From Candidatus Enterousia intestinigallinarum (GTDB taxonomy: Bacteria > Pseudomonadota > Alphaproteobacteria > Rs-D84): 64,000 nucleotides of DNA. The stretch lies in assembly GCA_944407095.1 (NCBI GenBank), contig OX097180.1, positions 62,001 to 126,000 of the forward strand. Reading direction: 5' to 3'. A program made the translations under genes and the position numbers. Below the pieces are notes generated by a model. It was not told the DNA's origin. It saw only the letters and a list, made by a program, of their open reading frames with translations, and did no database searches. Below are positions 739-17,511 of the stretch, in pieces. Numbering within the stretch: position 1 is the stretch's first letter; every line of letters starts with the position of its first letter.

Positions 739-1917
739 TCATAGATGTTTATTGAGCCAGCGGCGTATATACGTTTTTGAGTTATATGTTAGCATTAGGC
801 GTGGCAATATATAAACCAGCGTCCGCTTAGTTTGATAACGCCAAAAGCCACCTTTCGCACGAAAGGCGGAACGATAAGCACGGCGAACAGATTTATCACA
901 CACAAAGTGTTGCGCATCATAGGTAAATTGAAAATCCCTTAAAAATTGCTCTAAATATTTGGTTGGGCCTATTATCTGCGGAAATTCCGACCAGTGATGC
1001 GTAGGTAAGATTTCACGCGCACAATCCACCAGTACAAAATCACAATTCTTGGTTTTACATAACAAATACTGTGTGTTTGCATTGTCTGCTGGCAGTTTGT
1101 TGCGCTTAATTTGTATCACTGTACCACCACAAGGCATAAATAGCGATAGGTGCAAGGCAGAGCCTGCGATGCCGGCCAGGCATTTGCAATGCTTCATATA
1201 ACAGATTTGCTCATACAAGGACAGTTGTTCTGGATAAATAACAGTAAAGCCATTTTTTTCAAACACGCGTTGTATCTGCTGTTCGCCAAATGTTGCGCGT
1301 TCAGGCAATCGCTCCCTGGATACATAAATTTTTTCGATCTGGTGCGCTGGCTGTGCATGTGCGGCCGCGGCATCAAATGTTTTACCAAAGGCAGATGATG
1401 ACATATTCGGTATTTCAAATGCAACAGGCGGGACATATAACCGTTTAACTTTTATATTATCGTTTATTACATAAACATCAGATTGCTTAATTCCCAACAT
1501 TTGCAGAAAATCAAAGACAAAATCCGGCACTGTTGGCAAGTTTCGGTTGTTTAATATGATATATTTCATATTTTTGTATTTGGCCTGTAAAAGCGGGTAC
1601 AGGCGGTTTGTATGCTCTAATAAAAAATGCCCAAAATGGTCTTCCAGGGTGCCAATATACACAGCTTCTATATCTAAAAAATTGGTCGGCGGTGTAAATT
1701 TCGGTGGTTCCTGTACAATTTTATTGCGTAATTGTAAGGAGGCTTGTATAAGTGAACCATTGTCATCAAATACCCCAAAACGCTGTGTCGTCGGCTCAAT
1801 TATAACCGTGGCATTATCTATGGCCTGTATGCGCAATGTGCGTGTAAATTTTATGTCGCCGATAGACTTTGCAAAAAAACGCTTGTAGCGATTAGAGGCA
1901 TAAATAGATTGTTTCAT
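739..1917 (-). CDS. glycosyltransferase family 61-like (DUF563) protein
   Basis: A 392-residue cytoplasmic protein with the GT61/DUF563 pattern: GHFLLEHTNRLYPL at about residues 95-109, a central region with YVSRERLPER, and the C-terminal GSALHLSLFMPCGG segment (about 253-266) typical of the nucleotide-sugar binding half. GT61 enzymes transfer sugars such as xylose or GlcNAc in glycan assembly. The start lies one base from the end of the upstream GT4 gene (1919), so the two are co-transcribed. The C-terminus is rich in Arg and Lys, which would suit peripheral membrane attachment (inference). The substrate cannot be read from the sequence. Confidence 0.72.
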   Translation of the reverse strand: MKQSIYASNRYKRFFAKSIGDIKFTRTLRIQAIDNATVIIEPTTQRFGVFDDNGSLIQASLQLRNKIVQEPPKFTPPTNFLDIEAVYIGTLEDHFGHFLLEHTNRLYPLLQAKYKNMKYIILNNRNLPTVPDFVFDFLQMLGIKQSDVYVINDNIKVKRLYVPPVAFEIPNMSSSAFGKTFDAAAAHAQPAHQIEKIYVSRERLPERATFGEQQIQRVFEKNGFTVIYPEQLSLYEQICYMKHCKCLAGIAGSALHLSLFMPCGGTVIQIKRNKLPADNANTQYLLCKTKNCDFVLVDCAREILPTHHWSEFPQIIGPTKYLEQFLRDFQFTYDAQHFVCDKSVRRAYRSAFRAKGGFWRYQTKRTLVYILPRLMLTYNSKTYIRRWLNKHL

Positions 1918-1918
1918 A

Positions 1919-3028
1919 CTACTTGCTCTGTGCTTGTATAATATCTTGATACAGACCGATTATGGCATCAATATTACTGTTCAGGTCATATTTGTTGGCA
2001 ACAGATTGCTGTAATTGTTTCGCCAACGATGTTTGACGCTCTCTATCACGCAACAACTGTACAATGGCCTTTGATAATACGTCTGTTGAGCCGCTTTTTA
2101 TTAGCACACCCGTTTTTTTGTTTATCAATTCTTTAATGCCGCCGACATCTGTTGCAATTACAGGCTTGCCCAGCAGGGCTAATTCTATAAGCGATGTTGG
2201 GATACTTTCAAATAAAGAGGGTTGCGCAAATATATCATGCTTACCGGCAACGGCACCTGGACCGCGTCGCGGATCAAATACGCCAGCGAAACAAACACTG
2301 TTACCCAAGCCCAGCGATAATGCCAAGCGTTCAAAATATGATTTGGCCCGACCATCGCCGTATAAATATAATTTTGCGTCCGGTACTTGTTTGATAACAT
2401 CTTTCCAGGCCACCAATAAAACGCCGATACCCTTTTCGGGCGACATGCGTGCAATGCAGGCTACTGAATTTGGCGTGCGCCGAGCACTGTATAAATGTGG
2501 CTTATTTATAAAATGTGGGATTATTTTTATTGGGCCGCAGAATTTATGAAAACGCTTAATGCCATTTGCAGATGCCGTGCAAGTCGCCACAAAAGCATCA
2601 ATGCTTTTCAAAATCTTATCAAAGTGCGCTGGATACCAAAAAGCAGAGTCTGTGCCGGGGGTTGTATGTTCTGTTGCGATAATCGGTAAATGTGGCGATT
2701 TTTTGTGTTTTAGGTATGCGGATAACATATTGGCGGCGGGGCTGGCATGGATAATGTCGGGCAACCACGCAATAAACTCGTCCATAATATCGGCGACAAA
2801 TTCTGTATCTATACTGCGGTCTTCACGGCTTTCACGGTGGCGTTTGGGTGCATAGGTTTTTATATTGTGTTTTTTTAAACGGTCAAACCAATATGGATTT
2901 TGCGGTTTTTCGCAAACAAACACCCGAACGTCTATGCCGCGTTTTTTTAATTCTAGTGCCAATGTTGCGTTGTAGTATTCCGTGCCGCCGAACGAATGCA
3001 GATAATCACAAAATATAGCGACTTTCAT
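1919..3028 (-). CDS. glycosyltransferase family 4 protein
   Basis: A 369-residue GT-B fold glycosyltransferase. The N-terminal domain opens with GGTEYYNATLALELKKRG, the usual acceptor-side start of GT4 proteins. The C-terminal half has VACIARMSPEKGIGVL (about 190-205), the E-x7-E type region QPSLFESIPTSLIELALLGK and PVIATDVGG, which bind the nucleotide sugar. It is first in a minus-strand pair with the GT61 gene and is divergent from the NDK-like gene, with 113 bp of shared upstream DNA. A role in capsule, LPS or another surface glycan is inferred from context; the sugar is unknown. Confidence 0.85.
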   Translation of the reverse strand: MKVAIFCDYLHSFGGTEYYNATLALELKKRGIDVRVFVCEKPQNPYWFDRLKKHNIKTYAPKRHRESREDRSIDTEFVADIMDEFIAWLPDIIHASPAANMLSAYLKHKKSPHLPIIATEHTTPGTDSAFWYPAHFDKILKSIDAFVATCTASANGIKRFHKFCGPIKIIPHFINKPHLYSARRTPNSVACIARMSPEKGIGVLLVAWKDVIKQVPDAKLYLYGDGRAKSYFERLALSLGLGNSVCFAGVFDPRRGPGAVAGKHDIFAQPSLFESIPTSLIELALLGKPVIATDVGGIKELINKKTGVLIKSGSTDVLSKAIVQLLRDRERQTSLAKQLQQSVANKYDLNSNIDAIIGLYQDIIQAQSK

Positions 3029-3141
3029 TTTTGCCTCTTTGTTGCAATATTACCAAGCAAACTTACATGACGCAACGATTTATAGAAATATTTGACAACT
3101 AAAAACAATGTGTTAGCCTTTATAGAATCACAGGGGCAATT

Positions 3142-3639
3142 ATGTCAGAAAAGACACTTTTCCTATTAAAACCGGACGCTCTACAACTGAGCTTGCGGAC
3201 TTTACGCGCTAAATTTGATTTTTATAAGCAACTGCGATCAAATGATTTATCTGTTTTGGCATCAGCAAAGTTTAAGATGACTTATGATATGCTTATAGGT
3301 TATCAGCCCGTGTTGGCACCCGACTATCAAACAGAAATGACGCAAGACTGGAAAGATGCAACAATAAATTATCAATTAGGCCCAGACCGTACCGGTAGGG
3401 AGCATTTATTGGTTATTGTTGAGGGGTATGATGCGCTGGCAATGGGGCCGCGGATTAAAAGATATATTCGTAATAAATATTGCATACCATGGGAAAAGTA
3501 TGCGCCGGGCAATTTAATACATGCCCCAGATAATAATGATGAATACGAAAGTGATTTGGATTCCTTGCAATCTGTGTTAAAATCGGCAACAGGTATTAGG
3601 AATTTAGATATTTTATATAATACAAGGAGGGTAAAATGA
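3142..3639 (+). CDS. divergent nucleoside-diphosphate-kinase-like protein
   Basis: A 165-residue protein with the two ends of the NDK fold: an N-terminal TLFLLKPDAL strand matching the conserved IKPDA motif, and GNLIHAPDNNDE matching NIIHGSDS, which contains the catalytic His. NDK transfers the gamma phosphate between nucleoside triphosphates through phospho-His. Identity with housekeeping NDK looks low and the middle differs, so it may be a specialised relative. It opens a plus-strand operon; its TGA stop overlaps the ATG of the Nudix gene (ATGA). The start has a GGGGCAA ribosome site close upstream. It could supply or sense nucleotides for nucleotide-sugar synthesis (inference). Confidence 0.6.
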   Translation: MSEKTLFLLKPDALQLSLRTLRAKFDFYKQLRSNDLSVLASAKFKMTYDMLIGYQPVLAPDYQTEMTQDWKDATINYQLGPDRTGREHLLVIVEGYDALAMGPRIKRYIRNKYCIPWEKYAPGNLIHAPDNNDEYESDLDSLQSVLKSATGIRNLDILYNTRRVK

Positions 3640-4103
3640 TAAAAGAAATAAGTTATGCGGCATACATTATCCCGGTGCGCATCGTTAACGGGAAAAAGCA
3701 GATTGCCATTTTGGAATACGCGCCCAGTGCCTATGGCACAATCGGGGGCCGATTTGATGACGGCGAAACCACCGCGGAACAGGCTTTGATACGAGAATTG
3801 GGCGAAGAATTGGGTAAAAAATCTGAATTTATGGTTGGTTTGGCCCAACAGGTTGCAGTCCCTTATAAATTTAAGGTTGCTGAGCATAAAATTGAAAAGC
3901 GCGGTGCCTATAACGAGGCCCACATATTCTTTGTAGCAAAGGTGCCAAGTGATACGGTGCTGGAATTTTGCGAAGAACGCGAGGATACAGTAAAGGTTGT
4001 GTGGTTGGATTCTGAGGCATTGGTTGATGAAAAAGTAATTGGATTCCCAGATCAGCGTGAATATTTTGAGCAAAATGTTATGCCGATTGTGCGTAATATA
4101 TAG
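3636..4103 (+). CDS. Nudix hydrolase
   Basis: A 155-residue Nudix-fold protein. The Nudix box is at about residues 33-56 (GGRFDDGE then RELGEELG), giving the Glu residues that bind metal for hydrolysis of nucleoside diphosphate derivatives. Spacing between the first Glu and the REL triplet is one residue longer than the canonical box, a small helix-side insertion. The start overlaps the end of the NDK-like gene, with AAGGAGGG just upstream, so the pair is translationally coupled. In this cluster a nucleotide-sugar or (d)NTP substrate is plausible but not demonstrated. Confidence 0.82.
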   Translation: MIKEISYAAYIIPVRIVNGKKQIAILEYAPSAYGTIGGRFDDGETTAEQALIRELGEELGKKSEFMVGLAQQVAVPYKFKVAEHKIEKRGAYNEAHIFFVAKVPSDTVLEFCEEREDTVKVVWLDSEALVDEKVIGFPDQREYFEQNVMPIVRNI

Positions 4104-4111
4104 AAATAACC

Positions 4112-5188
4112 ATGAACATACTGATTCATTATTACAGATTGGGGCATTACATCGGCGGGGCCGAGGTAATTGCCCTGAATCAGTGTGCCGAGTTTATCAA
4201 TCAAGGGCATAATATAACCATACTAACCGCAGATGTTGGCAGGCGGTCAAAAATCTTTGATGAATTTATAGCCAACCACCCGTCTGTAAAACTGGTTGAA
4301 TTGCCTTTAATAGTTCCGGCAAAAACTGGGGATACATGGACAGACATTGATATAGAATCATATTTATTTGGCAAATATGCGGCCGAGCATTTTTATGCCG
4401 GCAACACAGAACCATTTGATATTGTTGTTATTCACAATAAAACAGATGCCCTGTTTATACCAAATCACTATAAGACGGTTGTACATTTACACGGCTCGCC
4501 CGAACAGTTTGATAATTTAATGGAAATAGCATTATATAATGCGAATGGCCTGCTGGCGGTTTCTGAAAGTGTGAAAGATGCCTGGACGGCAAATATAAAA
4601 TCCCTGCGCCGCCCAATATCTGTTATTCATAATGGGGTTGATAGTTCGATATTCAAAAATACAAATCAACGCCGTGATATAGATGTTTTATTTGTCGGCA
4701 GGTTATACCCACACAAGGGTATTTTGGAATTGTTAGAAGCGGCAATCACACATAACTTTAATTTAGTGGTTGTAGGCGCAGGCCCATTAGAGGCAGAAAT
4801 TGCCAAATATTCACATGTTCAACATTACAAAAATGTATCAACCGAAGAATTAACACGCTTTTACAATCGTGCCAAAGTATTTGCATGCCCGTCCAGTGCC
4901 AAGGAAGGTGTTTTAACCACAATGTTAGAGGCTGCAATGTGTGGTTGTGCCATTATAACCACGAATTGCGCTGGTATGGTTGATTTTGCAAAGCATGAAT
5001 ATAACTCGCTATTGGTGCCTCCAAAAGATGTTAAAGCCCTATCAGACGCGATAACAGGATTGTTGACCGATGATGCAAAGCGTGCGCAAATTGCCCACAA
5101 CGCAGAGTTTGAAGCGGTTAATAATTGGAACATACAAAGACAAACAAATAAGTTGTTAGACTTTTACAAATCCATAATATGCGAATAA
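4112..5188 (+). CDS. glycosyltransferase family 4 protein
   Basis: A 358-residue GT-B glycosyltransferase. It starts with HYYRLGHYIGGAEVIALNQC, the usual GT4 N-terminal glycine-rich loop. It has VIHNGVDSSIF at the domain junction and DVLFVGRLYPHKGILELLEA at the start of the nucleotide-binding domain. ACPSSAKEGVLTTMLEAAMCG supplies the E-x7-E motif region. It ends inside the start of the HPr-kinase-like gene (10-nt overlap), so the two are coupled. Best read as a surface-glycan assembly enzyme; donor and acceptor are unknown. Confidence 0.86.
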   Translation: MNILIHYYRLGHYIGGAEVIALNQCAEFINQGHNITILTADVGRRSKIFDEFIANHPSVKLVELPLIVPAKTGDTWTDIDIESYLFGKYAAEHFYAGNTEPFDIVVIHNKTDALFIPNHYKTVVHLHGSPEQFDNLMEIALYNANGLLAVSESVKDAWTANIKSLRRPISVIHNGVDSSIFKNTNQRRDIDVLFVGRLYPHKGILELLEAAITHNFNLVVVGAGPLEAEIAKYSHVQHYKNVSTEELTRFYNRAKVFACPSSAKEGVLTTMLEAAMCGCAIITTNCAGMVDFAKHEYNSLLVPPKDVKALSDAITGLLTDDAKRAQIAHNAEFEAVNNWNIQRQTNKLLDFYKSIICE

Positions 5189-6622: not shown

Positions 6623-7612
6623 ATGGCAATGATAACACCGCTAACGATTGGTATTCCAGTAAAAAATGAGGAAAATACAATATCCTCAACGCTGTTAGCA
6701 CTAAAACAAGCATTAAATCGTTTGGATAAGCATGTACAATTTGAAACAATTGTTTGCCTAAATGGAACAACCGATAACACACTGGCAGTAATACAAAGCC
6801 CCCAAAATTGCGCTTTGTGCAAAGATTTGCATTTGAGTGTTGTGCGTTCGCGTGCAGGCAAACTTGTGGCCGAACAGAAGATTGCCAATGTCCGTAAATT
6901 AAAAGGCTTTATATTATATTGTGATGCTGATGTTATAATAGATAAGTTGGCTATAAAGAAATTATATGAATGCATGTATGCAAATGATGCCTTGCGGGTT
7001 GTTTGTGCCAAGGTTTTACCCATTTTTAATGGGCGGCTTAATAACTTTCAAAAGATAATGAAAGCATACTATGAAATGCGTTATTTATTGCCGCAACGCG
7101 GTTGTTTCCATGGTCGCATGTTTATTGTCCGAGATGCACAGGATATTTTGAAAAAATACAATCTTGCACCAAGGTTAAAGCGTGTGCCACACAATGCTGT
7201 AAAAAAATTATATTTAGATAAAGGGCCAATATGTGATGATATTATATTATCCGCGGCGATTGTGCATAAATACGGTCAAGATGCAATAAGGCGTGTACCG
7301 ACTGCCAAAGTGTATTTTTACCCGCCGGATAACCGATATGACTTTTTCCTGGGCGTTCGCCGATATACTATTGAAATGCAACGCATCAATACGCTGTTTC
7401 CGGAATATGCTGCGATAAATACATCAAAACACTTTGAACGCCCGGTAAAAATAAACAAATGGACATTATTCCGGCGAAAAAAGCATCTGGCAGAAACGCT
7501 AATGGAATTTGAACTGTTTTTAAGCAATTTGGTAAAGAAATATGAACTTGAAAATCATAGCCTGGAACTATGGGAAACAGTAAAATCTAGCAAGCCCAAG
7601 CCTAGCAAATAG
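6623..7612 (+). CDS. glycosyltransferase family 2 protein
   Basis: A GT-A fold protein of about 330 residues. It has the classic GT2 opening TIGIPVKNEENTISSTLLAL, then QFETIVCLNGTTDNT and ILYCDADVI, the last being the DXD metal and nucleotide-sugar site. Two ATG codons, at 6623 and 6629, precede the conserved strand; 6623 is used here but 6629 is equally possible and there is no strong ribosome site. It is divergent from the HAD gene with only 23 bp between the starts, so the promoters must overlap coding DNA or be very close. It ends the glycan cluster before the accessory element. Confidence 0.82.
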   Translation: MAMITPLTIGIPVKNEENTISSTLLALKQALNRLDKHVQFETIVCLNGTTDNTLAVIQSPQNCALCKDLHLSVVRSRAGKLVAEQKIANVRKLKGFILYCDADVIIDKLAIKKLYECMYANDALRVVCAKVLPIFNGRLNNFQKIMKAYYEMRYLLPQRGCFHGRMFIVRDAQDILKKYNLAPRLKRVPHNAVKKLYLDKGPICDDIILSAAIVHKYGQDAIRRVPTAKVYFYPPDNRYDFFLGVRRYTIEMQRINTLFPEYAAINTSKHFERPVKINKWTLFRRKKHLAETLMEFELFLSNLVKKYELENHSLELWETVKSSKPKPSK

Positions 7613-7792
7613 TTAAATATATTTCCCTGTTCTGGGGAATTAAATTCCCTGTTATTTGTTTAGGGAATATTTTGTGGAAGTCGGGGAATGTGCCATGTGC
7701 GTGCGGGGCAAAATTTGTTTTTATGGCAAAAATTACAAAATTTCCCTGTAAATTCCCTGATGTTGTATGCGATTGACCGTAGAATTGTCTAA
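7613..7792. repeat. TTCCCTG-rich intergenic segment with a recombination half-site
   Basis: This non-coding stretch carries at least four TTCCCTG motifs and inverted GGGAA partners between 7622 and 7760. It ends with a 42-bp block (7749-7790) that recurs at 17243-17284 with four mismatches (common core GTTGTATGC ... GACCGTA ... AATTGTCTA). In the left copy this block abuts the 47-bp direct repeat at 7793; in the right copy about 180 bp separate them. Clusters of this kind flank serine-recombinase elements in other alphaproteobacteria, where they look like remains of the recombinase 3' region (family knowledge, moderate certainty). Confidence 0.55.
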
Positions 7793-7839
7793 CTCCGCCA
7801 GGAATATGACACATCCCGTGGTAACCCCGCGGGATGTTT
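7793..7839. repeat. left 47-bp direct repeat (attachment-site-like) with intrinsic terminator
   Basis: A perfect match to 17465-17511. It begins with CTCCGCCA, the last bases of tRNA-Ser genes, then GGAATATGAC and an intrinsic terminator hairpin (ACATCCCG at 7811-7818, CGGGATGT at 7830-7837, then a T run). This looks like the 3' end of a tRNA-Ser gene with its own terminator, copied at both ends of a 9.7 kb element. Confidence 0.75.
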
Positions 7840-8007
7840 TTTCGCCCGGTTTCCGGCGATTTTTATTGGCGACGGTACCAGTGTATACTCGCCATCGCGC
7901 TCAAATTCACCAAAAATCAAAACTTAGTATACATGAGGTATATTATCGAGTTCAGTAATGTTTTAATTTGGGATTGAATCTTAATAGAGTTTCACTATAT
8001 AGCTAAC

Positions 8008-8976
8008 ATGGCAGGCACAAAAAAACAACATTACATTCCGCAATTTTTATTAGAAAACTTTTCGTTCAACGAAAGGCATCAAATTAATGCGTTTGATAAA
8101 GAAACCGGTAAGCAGTGGATTGCTAATATTACAGATATTGCCCACGAAAATCATCTGTATGATATTAATACGGATAAAGGAACTAGAAGCTTAGAGCCTG
8201 CTTTTGCGGAACTTGAAAGTGCTGCTTCACCAATAATTAAGCAGATTGTTGAACGTAAATCTCTTCGCGAACTTGACGAAGATGATAAGGTTATATTATC
8301 TATATTCATTACCATTCAGTCGTTGCGTACTAGGTACGATATTGATAACAGCAAAAAAATGATGATAAATTTTCTTCGATGGGCATTGCCGATAGAAATA
8401 GCCGCATCGGATTATGAATTGCCAGACGAATTGAGAGCTGTCAATTTCATCGATTTGATAAAAGAAGCAAAGGTTGATGTAAAAGATGATTTTATTAAAT
8501 CGCTGCATTTTAAATCTGCTGCGGATATAGCACGTGAAGTGGTTCCTCAGATATTATCTATGGATTGGCTGTTATTTGAGACAATTCCAGATGATCCGTT
8601 TTTGATTGGCGATGGTGCTGTGGTAATGACTAATGAACATCCCTTTTTTAGGAAACGTGGACTTGGTTTTGCTGTGCCTTATATACAGATATATTTGCCA
8701 TTATCAAATACATTAATGCAGGGATTGTATTCGCCATTGATAAAAAAAGACATACGTGATAAACGTATAACGTTGCAAAAAAGCAATCCCGTATTGGCAA
8801 AAAATTTTACTAAAGTTAGTAATCCTTACTTTCGGGCGCTTGTCTCTAAACGACCACTCCTGCTAACCAAAGAGAATGTGGAATATTATAATCATTTACA
8901 AGTGCTTCAGTCTGGTAGATTTTTATATTCCAAGAGTGATGATTTTAGTCTTGCACGTGATATGTTAAAACTATAG
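8008..8976 (+). CDS. DUF4238 domain protein
   Basis: A 322-residue protein with the DUF4238 hallmark KKQHYIPQFLLENF at residues 5-18, NAFDKETGKQW shortly after, and the C-terminal IYLPLSNTLMQGLYSP region. DUF4238 proteins are soluble, of unknown biochemical function, and occur as stand-alone accessory genes in variable genome islands. Here it is the first gene inside the left repeat of the element, convergent with the recombinase remnant. Base composition is AT-rich like the rest of the element. A role in defence or element maintenance is only suggested by location. Confidence 0.8.
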   Translation: MAGTKKQHYIPQFLLENFSFNERHQINAFDKETGKQWIANITDIAHENHLYDINTDKGTRSLEPAFAELESAASPIIKQIVERKSLRELDEDDKVILSIFITIQSLRTRYDIDNSKKMMINFLRWALPIEIAASDYELPDELRAVNFIDLIKEAKVDVKDDFIKSLHFKSAADIAREVVPQILSMDWLLFETIPDDPFLIGDGAVVMTNEHPFFRKRGLGFAVPYIQIYLPLSNTLMQGLYSPLIKKDIRDKRITLQKSNPVLAKNFTKVSNPYFRALVSKRPLLLTKENVEYYNHLQVLQSGRFLYSKSDDFSLARDMLKL

Positions 8977-8984
8977 TGCCACGT

Positions 8985-10150
8985 TTATAATTGATGCTTT
9001 CGCGCCATAACAAATAATTCTGTAATAGATGTTGTGTATTTAGCGGCCAATATATCATTTACTATTGATGGCGACGTAAATGCTAAATCCAAGTATTTGA
9101 GCACATTTCTGACCGATGTGTTCTTCATTTTACTTATTTCATCAATGCCATTTCCTTTCTCATACATCTCGCGATACCGCCAAGCGGTGGCGAAGGCTTT
9201 AAGGATTAGGTGGTTATTATCGGTGATGCTCAAGACACCGTTCTTGGTTTTATCAAATACTGTATTTACATATTTTCGCAGGACAATCGGGACGGTAATT
9301 ACGATGCGACTATCGCTGATTGCGAATTCCATCAGTTCAGATTTCTGATTTATAAAGTTCTCGGTTACGAACGGCTGAAGTTTTGTTGTGTCGGGTACCA
9401 GATAAAATATTAGTTTATCCTGCGAGTATATAACTTTATCAACCAGTGATTGAATAAATGCTTTCTTTTCTGCGTATGGCATATTTTGAGTGTTTATGCG
9501 TTTCAGAATGTCAACGATCGCGGACGGCAGTGCCGAAAGGTCGACATCCAAGAACTGGGCGATGGTTTTAATGGTGATTTCATCAACTGTTGGCGCGGGC
9601 AGATAGAACCCTTTGGTTGCGTAATAATGAGTGTTGGTCTTGCCTTTGCCACATGTCCGATAAATCGCACACCGTTATGATTAAACAGTTTGCCGGTCAA
9701 CAGGTTGGGCGAACCGTGGCTTTCAGACTTGTTATTCGCATTGCTACGTAAGGCAATCTGTACGCGTTCAAACAGCTCAGTGGGTAATATCGCCTGATGC
9801 TCACCCTTTGCAACGGTGTTATCGATTTTGTTTACAATCTGGCCGACATAAGTCCGATCGCACAGGATGCGGTGCATACTCATTTTGGCAATTGGTCGTC
9901 CGCCTTTTACAACGCCTTTGGCGGTTGTCCATTGTTTGGCATATATTTTTTGCGCCGTGGCATATTCAGTCAGTGCATTTACAGATTGCAGTTCCAGATA
10001 CTTTTCAAAGAGCGTCCGAACGTTCGCGGCCTCAACCTCATTCGAAATCAATTTTTTATTTACCACATCATAACCCAATGGCGGGTTGCCGCTCATCCAC
10101 AGGCCTTTGGCTTTACTGACACAGATTTTATCGCGCACGCGTTCCAATAA
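8985..10150 (-). pseudogene. serine recombinase remnant, catalytic domain missing and frameshifted
   Basis: Reading from about 10150, LERVRDKICVSKAKGLW followed by GNPPLGYDV matches the recombinase domain that follows the resolvase catalytic domain in large serine recombinases. LLTGKLFNHNG marks the start of the zinc-ribbon region. Near 9650 the frame breaks: a one-base loss in a G run switches it. The correct continuation is GKTNTHYYATKGFYLPAP, which then joins the frame ending at 8985. The N-terminal roughly 120 residues with the catalytic Ser are absent; upstream DNA is a different decayed gene. The protein cannot be an active recombinase. It is probably the former integrase of the element bounded by the 47-bp repeats. 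Confidence 0.82.
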
Positions 10151-10588
10151 TATTTGTCGTTTGCAATGCATATAAAGATACCACTGTGGGTAAAACCGAT
10201 ATTAACCAATTTTTCTATACGTGATATGTCTTTCCAACAGTCATAACTACCTTCATCTTCGGCACCTTGTGGTTTTAATATGTCTCTGATCGGGATGCTA
10301 GTGTCTTCATATAGTTCGTCAGAGTCTTATCGTGTTGGTTTTGTATTTTAACTCAATGGGGAACCTTTGACCATCGGCAACAACCAAAACATCGATATAA
10401 ATTGTATGCCATCGGGTGTCATATACGTGCACAGGAAATTTACGGTATATTTTAACATCTGGTCGGTCATGAAATACCTGCGCCAGTTCTCATGTAAAAG
10501 ACGCCTGAAAAGCCGCCTCAGACACAAAGAACCGATGTTTTTGTTTCAGATTCATAAATGCAGAAACGATGGATTCTGTAATATTCAT
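10147..10588 (-). pseudogene. PD-(D/E)XK-type nuclease-like gene, broken
   Basis: From ATG 10588 the frame reads MNITESIVSAF, then HRFFVSEAAFQ, then a TGA at 10490-10492. It continues in the same frame with ELAQVFHDR, YIDVLVVADG and FPIELKYKT, a D...ExK core as in PD-(D/E)XK proteins. A second lesion follows; in another frame ELYEDTSIPIRDILKPQG, DISRIEKLV and ICIANDKYYW complete the family pattern. The TGA falls where relatives I recall carry a Trp (FQ..LAWEI), so it is probably TGG to TGA. The 3' end runs straight into the recombinase remnant. The gene starts 3 bp after the small membrane protein gene ends, so they formed an operon. Confidence 0.65.
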
Positions 10589-10590
10589 AT

Positions 10591-10821
10591 TTATTCCCAA
10601 TCGTCATCGTCCACATATGATTTTGGGGCAGCGGCTTCCAATCGTTCCCACGAAACATAATCCAGTGGTTTCTTTTTGGACTTTTTGCATTCTTCTACAT
10701 ATTCGGCATAGGCTTTGGCTTTACTATTCGTTGTTGCGCGCTTGATCATGCCACCTATAATCACGGTAATGCATACAACGAATAGAATTACTGAGAAATT
10801 TAAATCTGTAGTAATAATCAT
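10591..10821 (-). CDS. small single-span membrane protein
   Basis: A 76-residue protein from ATG 10821, preceded by an unusually G-rich ribosome site (run of eight G). One hydrophobic segment at about residues 8-28 (FSVILFVVCITVIIGGMI) is followed by a basic region and then a hydrophilic, acidic C-terminus ending DDDDWE. No family is recognised. It lies just downstream of the terminator of structured RNA A (10845-11028) on the same strand and just upstream of the broken nuclease-like gene. It may be the intact first gene of a decayed two-gene unit; a link to the RNA is possible but unproven. Confidence 0.55.
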   Translation of the reverse strand: MIITTDLNFSVILFVVCITVIIGGMIKRATTNSKAKAYAEYVEECKKSKKKPLDYVSWERLEAAAPKSYVDDDDWE

Positions 10822-10844
10822 ACCTATTCCCCCCCCTTGTTTAT

Positions 10845-11028
10845 AAATCAAAGACCGTCAACGGAATTGACGGCCGAGGAGTTGGTGTCAGCAAACGAAT
10901 GCTCCGCAGCCTTCGGGCAAGCCCTGTTTTATAGCGAACGGCTCCCCGACTAAAGTCGGGGGGATTTTAACGACAAATGCCGCGTCTGCGGGCCACCACA
11001 GCCCCGAACCCAATTCCCATTGGATTCA
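10845..11028 (-). ncRNA. candidate structured RNA, copy A of a three-copy family
   Basis: Transcribed right to left. It starts at GAATCC (11027) with a 5' hairpin GAATCCAAT/ATTGGGTTC and GGGA in the loop. TCGGGGC (11001-11007) then pairs with CCCCCGA near 10959. GTCGGGGAGCC (10940-10950) pairs with the AACTCCTCGGCC region near 10872-10883, and a terminator hairpin (10853-10874, GACCGTC/GACGGTC then T-rich) closes it. The promoter lies exactly upstream. The same order of elements is seen at 49233-49456 and 62718-62968. Stem sequences differ while pairing is kept. It sits inside the accessory element, between the divergent GHKL gene and the small membrane protein. It matches no RNA family I can name. 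Confidence 0.7.
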
Positions 11029-11033
11029 AGGGG

Positions 11034-11062
11034 AGTGTATCGCTAGAAACGAAGTAAATCAA
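11034..11062 (-). promoter_or_regulatory. sigma70-type promoter of structured RNA A
   Basis: On the minus strand TTGATT (11057-11062), 17 nt, TACACT (11034-11039), then 6 nt to the conserved GAATCC start. The same geometry occurs at the other two copies. Confidence 0.6.
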
Positions 11063-11070
11063 GCTGATTA

Positions 11071-11099
11071 TTGCAAAACCAAAATAATTATAGTAAACT
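11071..11099 (+). promoter_or_regulatory. promoter of the GHKL ATPase operon
   Basis: TTGCAA (11071-11076), 17 nt, TAAACT (11094-11099). A possible upstream TTG start for the ORF lies in the -35 box, which favours the downstream ATG at 11122. Confidence 0.5.
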
Positions 11100-11121
11100 C
11101 AATATATCAATCAAGGGTAAG

Positions 11122-13254
11122 ATGATGGAACAGTTTAAATTAAAAGCAAGATTGTTAAAGTTACTTGGTGAAGAACTTATTGCTTCACAGCATCTTGCCA
11201 TGTTTGAGCTTGTTAAAAACGCCTATGATGCGGATGCTACCTATGTAAATGTTACTATTGATAATCCATCTGATAAAAATAAAACACAAATATCCATTTT
11301 AGATGATGGATGCGGAATGACTCTAGATACGATAAAAAATAATTGGCTTGTCATTGGAACAGACGATAAAGAAAAAATGGCCAATGAAAACAAATTGTCG
11401 CCTATCTATCATAGATTTCCGTTGGGTGCGAAGGGGGTAGGACGATTTGCAGCCTATAAGCTTGGCGATAGAATTACTTTAAATACTAAATTTAAAAATT
11501 CGCCAGAATATGAATTGACTATAGATTTGGATGAGACGTCAAAAAACGAATTTATGGATGATATCAAACTGAATATCACTAAAGTTTCTAAGTGTGACGA
11601 AAAAATTAAATCCCAATCTGGAACTTTGATAACAATTACAAAAGTTAGAGATTCGTTATCGCCATTAACGATAAAAAAGCTTAATGAACAAATCAATACT
11701 ATCGTTTCGCCCTTTGTTAATGCGGGACTTGGGATAATAAATGATAATAATCCTTTTACTGTTAAGCTGCTTTGTAATGATAATGATGAAGCATACACCA
11801 GAAATATTGAAATAACGAATTTAGATGATATAATAAAAAAAGCAATTTATCGATTTGATTTTTCGTTTGAATCTGGTGAGCTAGACTTTAACTATAATTT
11901 TTGTCCAAGCCCAATATTACAAAGCCAAGCTAATGTAGAGACAAGGATAGAATCAGATAAAATAAAAAGGTTAGACATTGTTAACGAACATCGTAGTTTG
12001 TTTATGCAATCACTAGATGATTCTAAAAAATTTGGAAAAATTACGGGTGTTTTTTATGTGTTTGATTTTGGTAATGATGTTTTGCAGTACGAAAATGATA
12101 AAAAGATCCTAAAAGATTATGTAAGGGAAAATTATGGAATTCGTATATATCGTGATGGTATTAGAATCTATAATTATGGAATCCCAGGGAATGATTGGCT
12201 TAAATTAGATTTAGAGAGAATAAATCAACCGGGTGAACTGATTAGTAATAGAATGGTAATAGGTGCCATAAACCTAGAACATAGAAGTATAGCTGTATTG
12301 CGCGAAAAAACGGATCGTGATGGATTTATAGAAGACTCAATGTATGAATTGTTTCGTAGTATTATACAAAGCATAATTTCAAAGTTTACCTATTATAGAA
12401 ATCAAGATAAAGAAAAATTGCGACAAATACTAAAAAATCCATACGATAGAATTATAGATATGGAGAATCCAATAGCTGATTTAAAAAATAAATTAAATAA
12501 AAATAAGATGCTGGAAAAGCTTAAACCAGAAATTGATAAAGTAGAAAAAGCGTATAATCAGATGCGTAATGTAATGTTGAATTCTGGAACAGCATTGAAT
12601 GCGGCTATAACTATTCATGAGATAGAGAAAATATTATTTAGAATAAAATCTGATATAGCTAATAATGATATCTCATCGATAAAACAAGAAATTAATACAG
12701 CGGTTAGTCTGATAGAGGGTATTAGTGATTTGTTAAAGAAAGACTCTGTCAAAGAATATAGTATGAAAGCTATATTGGAGAATGTTTCATATCTTAATAA
12801 AAGACGCTTTGAGCGCCATGATATACATTTTATAAGTCCGTTATTAGAAAATATGCAAGAAGACGTTACTCTCAAATTTCCTAAACGTTTAATTACGAGC
12901 GCGATTATCAATTTAATAGATAATGCGATTTATTGGACGGATGTGAGATGGGATGGAATAAAAGATAGCCAGAAGAAGCTTTGTATCAACATTGATAAAA
13001 TTGATGGCAAGATTGCTCTGATTGTCGCTGATAATGGAACAGGTTTTCCAAAAGGAGATTGGGCAGAATTATTTCGTCCGTTTGTTACAACTAAGCCAAT
13101 GGGGGCAGGTATGGGATTGGGATTATATTTTGTTAAGACAATTATGGATAATATCAATGGGGAAGTTAGAATACTACTACCAGAAGACGTAAAATCATTA
13201 AAAAAGTTTGGGACTTTTGATGGGGCGGCCATTGCTCTTATTTTTAAGGATTAA
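11122..13254 (+). CDS. double-GHKL protein: Hsp90/MORC-like ATPase plus histidine-kinase-like domain
   Basis: A 710-residue protein from ATG 11122 (AAGGG upstream). The N-terminal GHKL ATPase has an intact N-box (ELVKNAYDADAT, Asn33), G1 (LDDGCGM, Asp61) and GAKGVGRFAAYKLG, as in Hsp90, MutL and prokaryotic MORC proteins. A long middle region leads to a helical segment with IHEIEK (His499), placed like a kinase H-box. A second complete HATPase follows: NLIDNAIYW (Asn601), VADNGTGFP (Asp637), FVTTKP and GAGMGLGLYFVK. There is no membrane segment, so it is cytoplasmic. It is followed 5 bp later by a receiver-like gene and convergently by an m5C methyltransferase. DNA is very AT-rich, which suggests transfer. 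Proposed role: ATP-driven sensor of a defence module (inference). Confidence 0.8.
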   Translation: MMEQFKLKARLLKLLGEELIASQHLAMFELVKNAYDADATYVNVTIDNPSDKNKTQISILDDGCGMTLDTIKNNWLVIGTDDKEKMANENKLSPIYHRFPLGAKGVGRFAAYKLGDRITLNTKFKNSPEYELTIDLDETSKNEFMDDIKLNITKVSKCDEKIKSQSGTLITITKVRDSLSPLTIKKLNEQINTIVSPFVNAGLGIINDNNPFTVKLLCNDNDEAYTRNIEITNLDDIIKKAIYRFDFSFESGELDFNYNFCPSPILQSQANVETRIESDKIKRLDIVNEHRSLFMQSLDDSKKFGKITGVFYVFDFGNDVLQYENDKKILKDYVRENYGIRIYRDGIRIYNYGIPGNDWLKLDLERINQPGELISNRMVIGAINLEHRSIAVLREKTDRDGFIEDSMYELFRSIIQSIISKFTYYRNQDKEKLRQILKNPYDRIIDMENPIADLKNKLNKNKMLEKLKPEIDKVEKAYNQMRNVMLNSGTALNAAITIHEIEKILFRIKSDIANNDISSIKQEINTAVSLIEGISDLLKKDSVKEYSMKAILENVSYLNKRRFERHDIHFISPLLENMQEDVTLKFPKRLITSAIINLIDNAIYWTDVRWDGIKDSQKKLCINIDKIDGKIALIVADNGTGFPKGDWAELFRPFVTTKPMGAGMGLGLYFVKTIMDNINGEVRILLPEDVKSLKKFGTFDGAAIALIFKD

Positions 13255-13259
13255 AATAA

Positions 13260-14558
13260 ATGAAAAATCTATCTAATGTAATAATAATTGATGATGTTCT
13301 TGCGGAAATTGATGCATTACGTGATGAATTTATAAAAGGTGGCTGTGTTCCTTTAATTTTAGATGTTAATAATGCAATCCCTACATATCAGGAATTACCA
13401 TTTATACCAAGAATAATTTGTTCTGACATAAAGATAATTGCAGGTGCTAGTGATGAACAAAATTATAGACAAATTGCTGATATTATAAGTACGTTAGTTT
13501 TAACAAATACAGTTTATGTTTTTATAGCTTGGACAAGCAATCCTACGGAATTTGAAAAATTAAAAACATATCTAGAAAATAGTGAAGAGTTAAATCAAAA
13601 GCAACCAATTCAGTTTTTGTGTTTAGATAAAAATAATTTCACTGTAAATATACTGAATTCTAAAATTCAAGAAATTGATAAAGATGTTTACTCTCTCTTT
13701 TATTGGAAACGTCTTGTGTCCCAAGCGGCTGAACAAACACTGGATAATTTATATGTCTTGTCAAAGTATGCTCAAGATACAACAATAGGAACAATATTAA
13801 ATTCATTAGCTCAAGTTAGTGTCGGTGAAGATCATATACATGGAAATGAGCCAAAAATTATAATAGAGCAATTGCATTACTTGCTTGCTGACACTTGTAA
13901 TCAGACAATTTTATCAAATTCATCGTCTAATACAATATTTTCTTCTGCTATTCATGGCGCGAGGAGTATAAATGGTGATTTAAAACCTGTATTAAATACG
14001 ATGTTGATTATCGATACGTCTAAAAATAATTCACGGTTTGTTTTTCCTGGAGATTTTCGTAGAATAAATTCTTGGAAGTTCGTTAAACTCTTTCTACAAA
14101 ACAATCCTGTATTAAAAGATAAAATAGGTTTGTTTTTCAAAAGCGCAAAGTTACGGAAACAGGAATTGTTATACGGGTATTTAGTTAAAAAGACTGATGC
14201 TCAAATGCAAAAAATCGATAATATTATAAATAAAGTAATATTCGGAGTTATAGATATAACGGCAGGGTGTGATTTTGCTAATGGGAAAGAGGGGTTACAT
14301 AAGATAGTCTTTTCCTTTTTAATGCCTAAAGTAGATGGGCTAAAGATTAAAACATCTGGGTCTATTATCAGTAAAGAAATTTCGTTGGATGACAATAAAT
14401 ATACTCTTATTATAGATGCAAAGTATCTAAGTGGTATAACCGCCAGAGATATTACTAAAAATACTTCCCATCTATTTAGAATAAGAGAAATGTCTATAAA
14501 TGATGTACGTCAAAAGGTCTTATTCTACAATGCTCGCATCGGAACAAGTACTTTTTAA
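13260..14558 (+). CDS. receiver-like N-terminal domain with large unknown C-terminal domain
   Basis: A 432-residue partner of the GHKL gene. The N-terminus resembles a response-regulator receiver: VIIIDDV (Asp11/Asp12, acidic pocket), PRIICSDIKI with Asp56 where the phospho-acceptor would be, and VFIAWTSNP with Thr92/Ser93 at the switch position. The remaining roughly 300 residues match no domain I recognise; they include IFSSAIHGARSINGD and a C-terminal SHLFRIREMSINDVRQKV block. With a His-containing double-GHKL protein encoded 5 bp upstream, a phosphorelay-like pair is a reasonable inference. The stop codon overlaps that of the convergent methyltransferase gene. Confidence 0.68.
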   Translation: MKNLSNVIIIDDVLAEIDALRDEFIKGGCVPLILDVNNAIPTYQELPFIPRIICSDIKIIAGASDEQNYRQIADIISTLVLTNTVYVFIAWTSNPTEFEKLKTYLENSEELNQKQPIQFLCLDKNNFTVNILNSKIQEIDKDVYSLFYWKRLVSQAAEQTLDNLYVLSKYAQDTTIGTILNSLAQVSVGEDHIHGNEPKIIIEQLHYLLADTCNQTILSNSSSNTIFSSAIHGARSINGDLKPVLNTMLIIDTSKNNSRFVFPGDFRRINSWKFVKLFLQNNPVLKDKIGLFFKSAKLRKQELLYGYLVKKTDAQMQKIDNIINKVIFGVIDITAGCDFANGKEGLHKIVFSFLMPKVDGLKIKTSGSIISKEISLDDNKYTLIIDAKYLSGITARDITKNTSHLFRIREMSINDVRQKVLFYNARIGTSTF

Positions 14559-15823
14559 TTCTCTGAGTTTTTTATATCTTTTTTGATGCTTTCTGCAATT
14601 TGTTTTGCAAGATACACTGGTACGGCGTTTCCTATTTGTTTGAATGCGCTAGATAAACATTCTTTGCCATCTGCAGATTCAAAACAATAGTTGTCAGGAA
14701 ACGTTTGTAGGCGGGCCGCTTCTCTTGGTGTTATGGAACGGTTTTGCTTTATGTCCGGATGGATATAATAATGACCATCTCTTGATATATGTGCAACAAC
14801 CGTATGTGAAGCCAACAAATCGCCCGCAACTACTTTGAATCTGTCTGTAAAAGCGGTTCTATTCCGATGAGTTTGCAATTTATTAGGTAAATCATTATAA
14901 TTTAAGCGTAAATGTCTATTGTTCCATTTTTCAACAGCTATCCGATATATTTCTAAATCTCGTTCATTGTGAGGACGTGATTTGTGCAGAGTGATTGGAA
15001 AATCATCTTTTAATCTCAAATCGTAAAGCTCTTTACAACCCTTCTTTGCTTTTACGGTATTTTTTGTTTTGTCGCCAGCCTGAATTGCTGGTAAATCAGC
15101 AAACAAATCTGCAATCCTTGCGGATAGTTTTTTGGGCGATAAATGTAACTTTATTGGTGCCAGATCTTTCCGCGTTCCGACAATTATAACCCTTTTTCGA
15201 CTCTGCGGAACCCCATACAGGTCTGCTGATACAATTTCAGGTACGGCAGAATATCCATTCTTGTCAAATTCTTGTAAAATTGTATCAAAATACTTTTCTC
15301 CGTTTCTATCTTTTGCCGACAACAACCCAAGAACATTTTCAAATACAAAATGTTTCGGCTTATATTTTTTCAAAAATTCAATATAATATTTAAATAACCA
15401 ATTGCGTTTATCGTCTTGCATGCCGCCAATTCTTTTTGTTGCACCACGCCCAATAAGCGAATAGGCCTGACAGGGTGGACCACCGACTATCAAATCTAGC
15501 TGTTTGTTTCCAAGGATAGTATCTATTTGCGCAAATATACTTTCAATTGTTTTATCGGATATTTCTGTATTTATTACAGAATCAATTATATGTTTTGGTA
15601 CTTTTGAATAAAGTTCCTCTCGGGTTATTGCGCCCTTTAGGTAGTCTGCATACAAATTTGCTTTTTTGTGTTTGGTAAGCCAATGAAACGCCATGCGCGT
15701 ACGTAAAGAGAAACATGCGGCCTTGTCCATTTCTACATGGGCAAGCGGTTCAAATCCCGCTTGTACGAAGCCCTCGGACAATCCTCCGCAGCCAGCAAAA
15801 AGGTCTATAAATGTTGGTTTCAT
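14555..15823 (-). CDS. DNA (cytosine-5) methyltransferase
   Basis: A 422-residue C5-methyltransferase with all main motifs in order. Motif I is FIDLFAGCGGLSEGF (5-19). Motif IV is GGPPCQAYS, with catalytic Cys118. Motif VI is FENVLGLL (161-168) and motif VIII is QSRKRVIIVGTR. The target recognition stretch comes before ITPREAARLQTFPD (IX), and QIGNAVPVYLA is motif X. It transfers a methyl group from SAM to C5 of cytosine at a specific site. No restriction endonuclease lies next to it; the partners are the convergent GHKL and receiver-like genes. The target site cannot be read from sequence. It looks intact. Confidence 0.93.
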   Translation of the reverse strand: MKPTFIDLFAGCGGLSEGFVQAGFEPLAHVEMDKAACFSLRTRMAFHWLTKHKKANLYADYLKGAITREELYSKVPKHIIDSVINTEISDKTIESIFAQIDTILGNKQLDLIVGGPPCQAYSLIGRGATKRIGGMQDDKRNWLFKYYIEFLKKYKPKHFVFENVLGLLSAKDRNGEKYFDTILQEFDKNGYSAVPEIVSADLYGVPQSRKRVIIVGTRKDLAPIKLHLSPKKLSARIADLFADLPAIQAGDKTKNTVKAKKGCKELYDLRLKDDFPITLHKSRPHNERDLEIYRIAVEKWNNRHLRLNYNDLPNKLQTHRNRTAFTDRFKVVAGDLLASHTVVAHISRDGHYYIHPDIKQNRSITPREAARLQTFPDNYCFESADGKECLSSAFKQIGNAVPVYLAKQIAESIKKDIKNSEN

Positions 15824-16023
15824 TAGAATACTACATTACTATTATGAATGCATTATACAATAAGAAGCCAAAATTTATCAATTTATATTTTATCATAAAA
15901 TGGTTATTTTACTGATATCAGAAACTAACAGCACATACGGAGTGGTTCAAGTTATTCATAGTGCTTCGCTTGTGACAATTTGTAGACATAACGCAATGCC
16001 TTTTGCTATAGCATTATTGCTAA

Positions 16024-16449
16024 TTACAGATGCACTATCTCAGTATCTGGGAATTGCTCTGCGATGTATTCAGCGGCCAGGCGGCGGTGGCATTGTAGTG
16101 CCGATTTTTCCGTGCATAACAGGCAAATGCGGTCAATGTCGTCCGAGGCGAGCCCATCGGCCGGTCGGCGCGTGGCCAATAATTCGCGATACATTCGTTC
16201 ATAATCGGGCCAGGTGATGCGACCGTCTTTGTACCCGGTCAAAATTTCGGCTATCGGTGCAAATTCTGGGTGATATTCGTACCGCGTCTCCAGCGTCGCC
16301 GCCAGATTATCGCCACTGTAAAACGGCACGTATGTGCTTGTCCGCCACAGGCGTATGTCCCAGACCGCGCGCACACGCACCGCGTTTAGTACATCCAGAA
16401 ACGCGTCAGGACTTTTACCACTGAAACCAATCGTAAAAATCTTTGCCAT
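16024..16449 (-). CDS. DUF488 family protein
   Basis: A 141-residue protein starting KIFTIGFSGKSPDAFLDVL, with a central WPDYERMYRELLA and a C-terminal RICLLCTEKSALQCHRRLAA. The Cys-rich LLC...CHR signature is shared by the DUF488 family. It is a close paralog of the broken copy at 1-340. It starts 1 bp after the dual-OB gene ends and so is its operon partner, a pairing often seen in genomes. Function is unknown; a nucleic-acid-related role is suggested by the OB partner. It lies inside the right end of the accessory element. Confidence 0.85.
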   Translation of the reverse strand: MAKIFTIGFSGKSPDAFLDVLNAVRVRAVWDIRLWRTSTYVPFYSGDNLAATLETRYEYHPEFAPIAEILTGYKDGRITWPDYERMYRELLATRRPADGLASDDIDRICLLCTEKSALQCHRRLAAEYIAEQFPDTEIVHL

Positions 16450-16450
16450 A

Positions 16451-17101
16451 TCAGTATAAAAATAACCCGTTTAACATTAAATAGCAATGATTTTCCTGCA
16501 TCAGGAATTTGCGTGCCAATCCTATACGACAATGGGCATATTGGCTGGCGGCAACGGCATTATTCAAATTTTCGACATCTTTACCTTTTTCAAATATATC
16601 GCGCAAGTATTTGCAACTGACTTTTAATTCATAGGTTTGTTTGGAATAGTCCGTGATACGTGCGCGCAGTTTACCGTCTTCTGTAAAGAATTCAATATTG
16701 TGTGCCGGAATCAATATGGCACCCAATGAAGGGCATTTGGTTTTCTGTGGCACATAGGCATTTTCTTTGACATGATGATGGAATATACCCTGGATATCTT
16801 TTGAAACGCTATCGCGCAAAGCATTGGCCAGCTCTTTTCCTGGTTCTAATTCTTGCAAAAACTCGATGGAGTCAAAGTTTATATTTACGTCTTCGGTTCT
16901 GTGTGGATAATCCCGTGGCTCTTTGAATTCTTCATTATCAACCAGTATTTCACAATACGAGGGCGGAATTTGATCTGCATTCCAATATCCACCGTCAATC
17001 ATCAGGCGCTTCATACGCTTTTCATAGGTGTCAAAACCGGCAATGCAGAACTTTTCTTTCATGCATGTTATGTCGGAAATGACTATATGTGATTTTTTCA
17101 T
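16451..17101 (-). CDS. dual OB-domain-like protein
   Basis: A 216-residue soluble protein. It opens HIVISDITCMKEKFCIAGFD, which fits the first OB strand of dual-OB proteins that pair with DUF488 genes. It then has RIGLARKF near the C-terminus in a second OB-like half. The ATG at 17101 is used; Met14 is an alternative start. It is the first gene of a two-gene operon with DUF488. Nucleic-acid binding is implied by the fold but no catalytic site is visible. Family assignment rests on the start motif and the neighbour, so it is moderate. Confidence 0.6.
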   Translation of the reverse strand: MKKSHIVISDITCMKEKFCIAGFDTYEKRMKRLMIDGGYWNADQIPPSYCEILVDNEEFKEPRDYPHRTEDVNINFDSIEFLQELEPGKELANALRDSVSKDIQGIFHHHVKENAYVPQKTKCPSLGAILIPAHNIEFFTEDGKLRARITDYSKQTYELKVSCKYLRDIFEKGKDVENLNNAVAASQYAHCRIGLARKFLMQENHCYLMLNGLFLY

Positions 17102-17237
17102 AGTTCTTCCTTTGGGTAATAAAAAAGCCCCGCCGGCATCGGGCAGAGCAATAAAAAACGGCGACGAAATCGCTTGCTTAACTTGCCGAGTATTATATCA
17201 AAAATTGGCTAAAAAATCAATAAAAAAGATAGATTTT

Positions 17238-17511
17238 GAATTAAATTCCCTGTTGTTGTATGCAATAGACCGTAAAATTGTCTACCACCGCTACAATACA
17301 AAACACGCCCCTGTGGCGTGATTTTTATTGTGTTTGATGATGTGGATTTGACCCCGGGACAAAAGGGTTCGAACCACTGCAAAAAGGCGGATGGGCGTAC
17401 GCCGGTTTGCGCGAATGCGCAAATTTTGCCGGGTGATGAAGCGTCTACGAAATAATCCCTTCGTCTCCGCCAGGAATATGACACATCCCGTGGTAACCCC
17501 GCGGGATGTTT
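17238..17511. repeat. right end of the accessory element: half-site and 47-bp direct repeat
   Basis: 17243-17284 repeats the left half-site with four mismatches. 17465-17511 is identical to the left 47-bp repeat and includes the terminator ACATCCCG/CGGGATGT. Just before it, 17454-17472 matches the last 19 bases of the tRNA-Ser at 45701-45790, so the right junction keeps more of a tRNA-Ser 3' end than the left. The 180 bp between the two blocks include a hairpin around CACGCCCC/GGCGTG (17305-17325) and no gene. I read this as the right boundary of an integrated element. Confidence 0.7.

Follow-up and report, generated by a model that had tools for sequence, protein, structure and literature searches.

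A histidine kinase-like and response regulator-like gene pair beside a cytosine methylase on an apparently decayed mobile island: a possible immune module

The window analysed here is a 64,000-nucleotide stretch of the genome of Candidatus Enterousia intestinigallinarum (contig OX097180.1, positions 62,001 to 126,000). Within it lies a three-gene locus encoding a histidine kinase-like (HK-like) protein, a response regulator-like (RR-like) protein and an m5C methylase. The features of the locus and its surroundings are listed below, in window positions.

7793-7839, + strand: 47-bp direct repeat, left copy, containing a strong terminator-like hairpin
8008-8976, + strand: DUF4238 gene, at the left end of the element
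8985-10171, - strand: serine recombinase remnant (PF07508), two ORFs, frame-broken and without the catalytic N-terminus
11122-13254, + strand: HK-like P0001, 710 aa
residues 1 to about 400 of P0001: ATPase module, MORC/BbrUII-type GHKL, followed by a helical linker that leads to the DHp
12616-12618, + strand: His499 codon, in the DHp of P0001
residues 591-684 of P0001: HATPase_c
13260-14558, + strand: RR-like P0002, 432 aa, starting 5 bp past P0001
residues 1-125 of P0002: receiver, with D11/D12, D56 (nt 13425-13427), T92 and K124
residues 126-240 of P0002: helical middle
13980-14555, + strand: C-terminal Cys-Asp domain of P0002 (residues 241-432), with C337-D338 (nt 14268-14273), R407, R409 and R426
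14555-15823, - strand: m5C methylase P0003, convergent with P0002, the two sharing 4 bp at their stops
16024-17101, - strand: DUF488 and DuOB-like genes, cargo kept with the module in the related locus L110, for which module membership is not claimed
17465-17511, + strand: 47-bp direct repeat, right copy

The three ORFs were found exactly where the original prediction had placed them, with the 5-bp gap and the overlapping stops that it described. The observation of a three-gene module is confirmed as real; a chance arrangement is far exceeded, since the HK-RR adjacency recurs in 93 of 95 loci (see below).

The two copies of the 47-bp repeat are identical, bracket positions 7793-17511 and, by a pattern search of the 1.0-Mb genome, are the sole ones present. 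They probably delimit the element, and the repeat may be either the core of an att site or the end of a transcript that was duplicated. Besides the module, the element carries DUF4238, recombinase, DUF488 and DuOB genes (Pfam), and an Rfam search over it gave no match. A search for an empty site yielded none, since in the relatives searched the genes on the two sides of the element do not adjoin each other. L110, a prophage-like contig from IMG/VR, encodes a terminase and a related recombinase and has the module flanked by the same cargo; its DUF488/DuOB-like pair (11621-12698) shows about 87% nucleotide identity to that of the window. Between its recombinase and its module (1882-5031), L110 encodes a ParB/N6-N4 methylase as well as the terminase, which places a relative of the island in prophage-like DNA. 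The locus had been predicted to lie inside a mobile element, and the bracketing repeat agrees with this, but the recombinase is broken and the module looks to sit on a decayed island, partly syntenic with L110.

P0001 matched HATPase_c_3 over residues 24-168 (PF13589, E 3e-23) and HATPase_c over residues 591-684 (PF02518, E 2e-20), and both domains were present in 69/69 HK homologues. In these homologues E29, N33, D61 and the G-boxes of the first GHKL site were invariant, as were H499, N597, D600, N601 and D637 of the H-box and second site (69/69). When the predicted structure (pLDDT 85, pTM 0.63) was searched with Foldseek, its N-terminal half matched the ATPase modules of SMCHD1, MORC and Hsp90, and its C-terminal half the HK853 core. 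The receiver of P0002, whose fold was predicted with confidence by AF2 (whole protein pLDDT 90.6, pTM 0.84), was conserved to a similar degree: among 78 RRs, D11, D56 and K124 were found in 78/78 and D12 in 76/78, and position 92 was T or S in 72/78. The pair therefore shows the hallmarks of a two-component system, namely an invariant acceptor His with N and G boxes on one side and the receiver DD, D, T/S and K on the other. These results uphold the two complete GHKL sites, the Hsp90/MORC likeness (Asn33, Asp61), the H-box-like His499 and the receiver-like N-terminus (Asp11/12, Asp56, Thr92) of the original prediction, whose residue list lacked K124.

The C-terminal domain of P0002 is marked by G264, C337 and D338, which are invariant in the 78 RRs. 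No significant match to P0002 was obtained in Pfam, PADLOC or NCBIfam, and a Foldseek search of its model against PDB and BFVD matched receivers, leaving the C-terminus without a convincing match. In this region Pfam and Foldseek revealed no nuclease family or fold, whether PD-(D/E)xK, HNH or another, and no DNA-binding family was found there by Pfam, across the 78 RRs or by Foldseek. It had been described as a large unassigned domain, and this stands by both profile and predicted structure; with no family or PDB fold matched, it was not identified with any known housekeeping output. In 398 Pseudomonadota genomes, matches to a profile of the domain were confined to RRs of the window's own RR family, and a search of phage records found no match to P0002. 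The 78 RRs gave stray single matches only in PADLOC; one homologue matched the model PD-Lambda-5_A (E 1.5e-4).

P0003 contains m5C motifs I, IV (PC), VI (ENV), VIII, IX and X and matched PF00145 (E 5e-64), as expected of the complete, convergent DNA cytosine methyltransferase that had been predicted. Its best PADLOC model was DrmMII of DISARM. We rejected DISARM as an identity for the locus, since the DrmMII-like methylase alone matches and DrmA helicase, DrmB, DrmC and DrmE were not found.

Relatives were gathered with the HK alignment as query, the RR alignment being too divergent for a genome scan; P0002 alone as query retrieved few and distant homologues. This gave 296 HK relatives in genome contigs, of which the best 80 of 296 were kept, and 23 in viral contigs. 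Gene neighbourhoods were examined in 95 loci, and residues were counted on 69 HKs and 78 RRs. The hosts include Pseudomonadota, Acidobacteriota, Chlorobiota, Myxococcota, Actinomycetota, Bacteroidota, Chloroflexota and Spirochaetia, and the carriers of the module include a mobile island, plasmids and one contig with a terminase gene.

An RR homologue directly follows the HK in 93/95 loci, mostly with a junction of -3 to +6 bp; in the other two the contig stops within the HK (L031) or the RR is not readable (L055). A C5 methylase lies nearby in 84/95 loci and Vsr in 49/95. Co-occurrence in other genomes had been proposed as a check, and the HK-RR linkage proved nearly perfect; the suggested tie of a MORC-type ATPase to restriction-modification (R-M) is likewise borne out by the methylase and Vsr counts. 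The methylase may stand upstream, downstream or convergent with the RR as in the window, and its subfamily, side and orientation vary from locus to locus; the convergent overlap with the RR is shared by unrelated hosts (window, L018, Campylobacter). The original remark that the module has no nuclease holds for the window but not as a general rule, since relatives occur with Vsr, with AspBHI-N/Mrr (10 of the 95 loci) or with MvaI/BcnI nucleases (8 loci), and loci such as L038, L065 and L076 carry a full set of methylase, Vsr and MvaI/BcnI-type nuclease. The AspBHI-N/Mrr proteins, whose family cuts m5C-modified DNA, adjoin an m5C methylase in L035 (11762-12745) and nine other loci. In L030, whose HK is 91% identical, two D12 methylases and RE_AlwI, which form an R-M set of the AlwI type, lie beside the module at 7027-10557.

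The original prediction could not name this combination of genes, yet its kind has already been described. Bellieny-Rabelo et al. (2021; PMC8011034) linked HK-like proteins of the order HATPase_c_3, HEF_HK and HATPase_c to RR-like proteins and C5 methylases, with support from a shuffling test, found Vsr and type II nucleases near such pairs as well, and proposed that the two-component-like pairs control neighbouring R-M genes. The locus shares with these pairs the architecture of HATPase_c_3, His box and HATPase_c, the adjacent RR-like gene, the nearby C5 methylase, Vsr and type II nucleases among its relatives, and the C-terminal CD and RxG motifs of the RR. However, the HEF_HK kinase has about 1000 aa against about 710 in the window's branch, and the Response_reg_2 RR about 600 aa against about 430. 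PF19191 (HEF_HK) matched 0/69 HK homologues and PF19192 (Response_reg_2) 0/78 RR homologues and nothing in the window's own genome, while the control locus L020 matched both (PF19191 at 1.8e-22). Of the 398 Pseudomonadota genomes, 10 have the Response_reg_2 family and 3, the window's own among them, have the RR family of the window. A whole-length profile comparison of the two RR families was weak (E 0.0019, probability 14%), and placed the receiver Asp, the CD motif and the terminal RxG in register. A third RR type, which is shorter, is encoded next to P0003 relatives on plasmids of Campylobacter and Hymenobacter; the Campylobacter receiver matches Response_reg at E 2.8e-5, below the curated cut-off, and its C-terminus aligns with the window's family across the same motifs. 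The Cys-Asp/Arg-Gly signature is thus common to three RR families, and their alignment over the same motifs suggests that the common part is receiver plus Cys-Asp domain. Judged from these comparisons, the window's module is a separate branch of the described kind. New here are the shared RR output signature, the apparent exchange of the pair for restriction nucleases next to members of a single methylase family, and the allele swapping of the RR.

The interchange concerns the BbrUII/HgiDII restriction enzymes. The N-terminus of P0001 matched their profile NF050001 (E 4.6e-26), the match being partial (it covers positions 4-183 of the 659 in the profile and scores 91 bits, where the cut-off is 550), and the PADLOC model REase_II matched 69/69 HK homologues, at residues 15-191 for P0001. 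On plasmids, methylases with 55% and 48.5% identity to P0003 adjoin NF050001-type proteins that match nearly the whole profile length, yet below the cut-off, one of them with a C-terminal D...ExK motif; other methylases of the P0003 family (43-50% identical) pair with HK and RR. The homologous N-terminal GHKL ATPase and the partner methylase family are therefore shared, whereas the nuclease-like D...ExK C-terminus of these enzymes gives way in P0001 to a predicted kinase core signalling to a separate RR. Since one methylase family stands beside either GHKL-nuclease enzymes or HK and RR, it seems, from neighbourhood and homology, that the HK-RR pair replaces the nuclease half of BbrUII-type enzymes.

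The RR gene behaves differently from its neighbours. Window and L110 are 96% identical in the HK and 94% in the methylase, but 38% in the RR, and at the nucleotide level an identity of about 0.9 gives way to one of about 0.5 just inside both ends of the RR gene. In pairs with HK identity of 0.8-0.9, RR C-termini are often near 0.43-0.49 and otherwise at 0.65-0.82, and in L057/L065 the break lies inside the RR, with identity of 0.8-0.9 to about residue 190 and 0.3-0.6 past 215. In AU tests on quick trees, with groups chosen after the RR tree was seen, HK clades were rejected by the RR C-terminal data (L041+L050, p 1.1e-5; L070+L083, 9.9e-6; L073+L085, 3e-53) and RR clades by the HK data (L041+L062, p 3.9e-5; L083+L085, 1.8e-3). 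These patterns indicate that allele swapping affects the RR, above all at its C-terminus, under a conserved HK and methylase. Of the two partners in an ordinary two-component system, it is usually the sensor that varies more, so a hypervariable RR would be unusual. Its variability fits a component exposed to counter-adaptation in an arms race. RR alleles did not track the methylase: the partial correlation was -0.08 over 104 related pairs, and a matching of RR C-terminal alleles to methylase specificity is not supported.

Among known systems, Detocs also provides phage defence via a histidine kinase and a receiver, with a sensor and effector that differ from those of the window's module. The parallel drawn in the original prediction holds for the kinase/receiver pair but not for the gene set: in place of dtcABC there are two signalling genes, with no third component and no phosphatase family in P0002 or its neighbours, whereas Detocs has a phosphatase-type effector. 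Detocs is at most an analogy. Bacterial MORC/paraMORC ATPases occur in R-M operons (Iyer et al. 2008, PMC2292703) and share with P0001 the GHKL and S5-type module beside cytosine methylases and Vsr, and the SMCHD1/MORC fold; the described families have no kinase or receiver, and their operons usually contain SFII helicases and fused nucleases. VcSduA, a Shedu protein with a GHKL N-terminus, likewise has a GHKL ATPase, which phage tests showed to be required for its defence output (PMC12137116); that output, unlike the separate RR here, is a DUF4263 nuclease fused in a single protein.

A defence-or-signalling reading of the module is plausible, and we infer its phosphotransfer, trigger, output and anti-phage role as follows. 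The module could be an R-M-like immune module in which a phosphorelay replaces the nuclease output, a proposal to which we give somewhat less than an even chance. The methylase would mark the host's own DNA, and the MORC/paraMORC-type ATPase of P0001 would clamp on, or be triggered by, unmarked invading DNA or, alternatively, a DNA state brought about by a phage. Closure of the dimer, driven by ATP, would then switch on the fused histidine-kinase core, which would phosphorylate His499, and the phosphate would pass to Asp56 of P0002, freeing its Cys-Asp domain for an output that would most likely be damage to the invading DNA or the infected cell. As a target of invaders, the Cys-Asp domain would diversify through recombination. 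This proposal draws on the invariant kinase and receiver residues with the SMCHD1/MORC and HK853 fold matches; the linkage of HK with RR, methylase and Vsr; the BbrUII/HgiDII homology, with a single methylase family found next to either of two kinds of partner; the C-terminal signature of three RR families and the swapping of the RR under a conserved HK and methylase; and the presence of such modules on a mobile island, on plasmids and on a terminase contig. Counting against it, no methylase lies within reach in 11/95 loci, some of them on short contigs, no system in PADLOC-DB 2023 matches the module, and the lack of tracking between RR alleles and methylase leaves a tie between output domain and methylated site unsupported.

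It would not be unreasonable to suppose instead that the pair is a regulatory two-component system tuning neighbouring R-M genes, with an RR C-terminus that binds DNA or protein. The HK-RR architecture, the R-M genes in the neighbourhood, the control suggested in PMC8011034 and the full sets of L038, L065 and L076 speak for it. Yet many loci, including the window, offer no nuclease gene to control, the RR C-terminus belongs to no DNA-binding family searched for, and an invariant Cys-Asp with Arg is odd for a plain DNA-binding domain; nor would a dedicated regulator with a constant methylase partner be expected to be allele-swapped, so we consider this unlikely. More unlikely still is that P0002 is itself the restriction nuclease, its C-terminal domain cutting unmethylated sites once phosphorylated: it does occupy the place of the nuclease half in BbrUII-type enzymes and has invariant polar residues, but no nuclease family or fold was found in it, and the RR alleles do not co-vary with the methylase as those of a sequence-specific nuclease should. 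That the HK-RR pair and the methylase are independent, non-cooperating passengers of the same defence islands, as varying methylase subfamily, side and orientation and differing island cargo (L110 against L030) might suggest, is improbable given the methylase in 84/95 loci, the convergent overlap recurring in unrelated hosts and the published shuffling test (PMC8011034).

If the proposed immune module is real, a restriction enzyme's DNA-sensing ATPase can be rewired to a signalling output, bacterial MORC relatives would gain a tractable function, and there would be a two-component pair whose hypervariable part is the regulator and not the sensor. The Cys-Asp ... Arg-Gly signature ties together three RR families, of which Pfam Response_reg_2 misses two. 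It is possible, though doubtful at present, that the module represents a class of immunity in which MORC-clamp DNA sensing is coupled by phosphorelay to a new-fold effector, and in which the effector regulator is a cassette that can be exchanged beneath a conserved kinase and has been diversified by an arms race.
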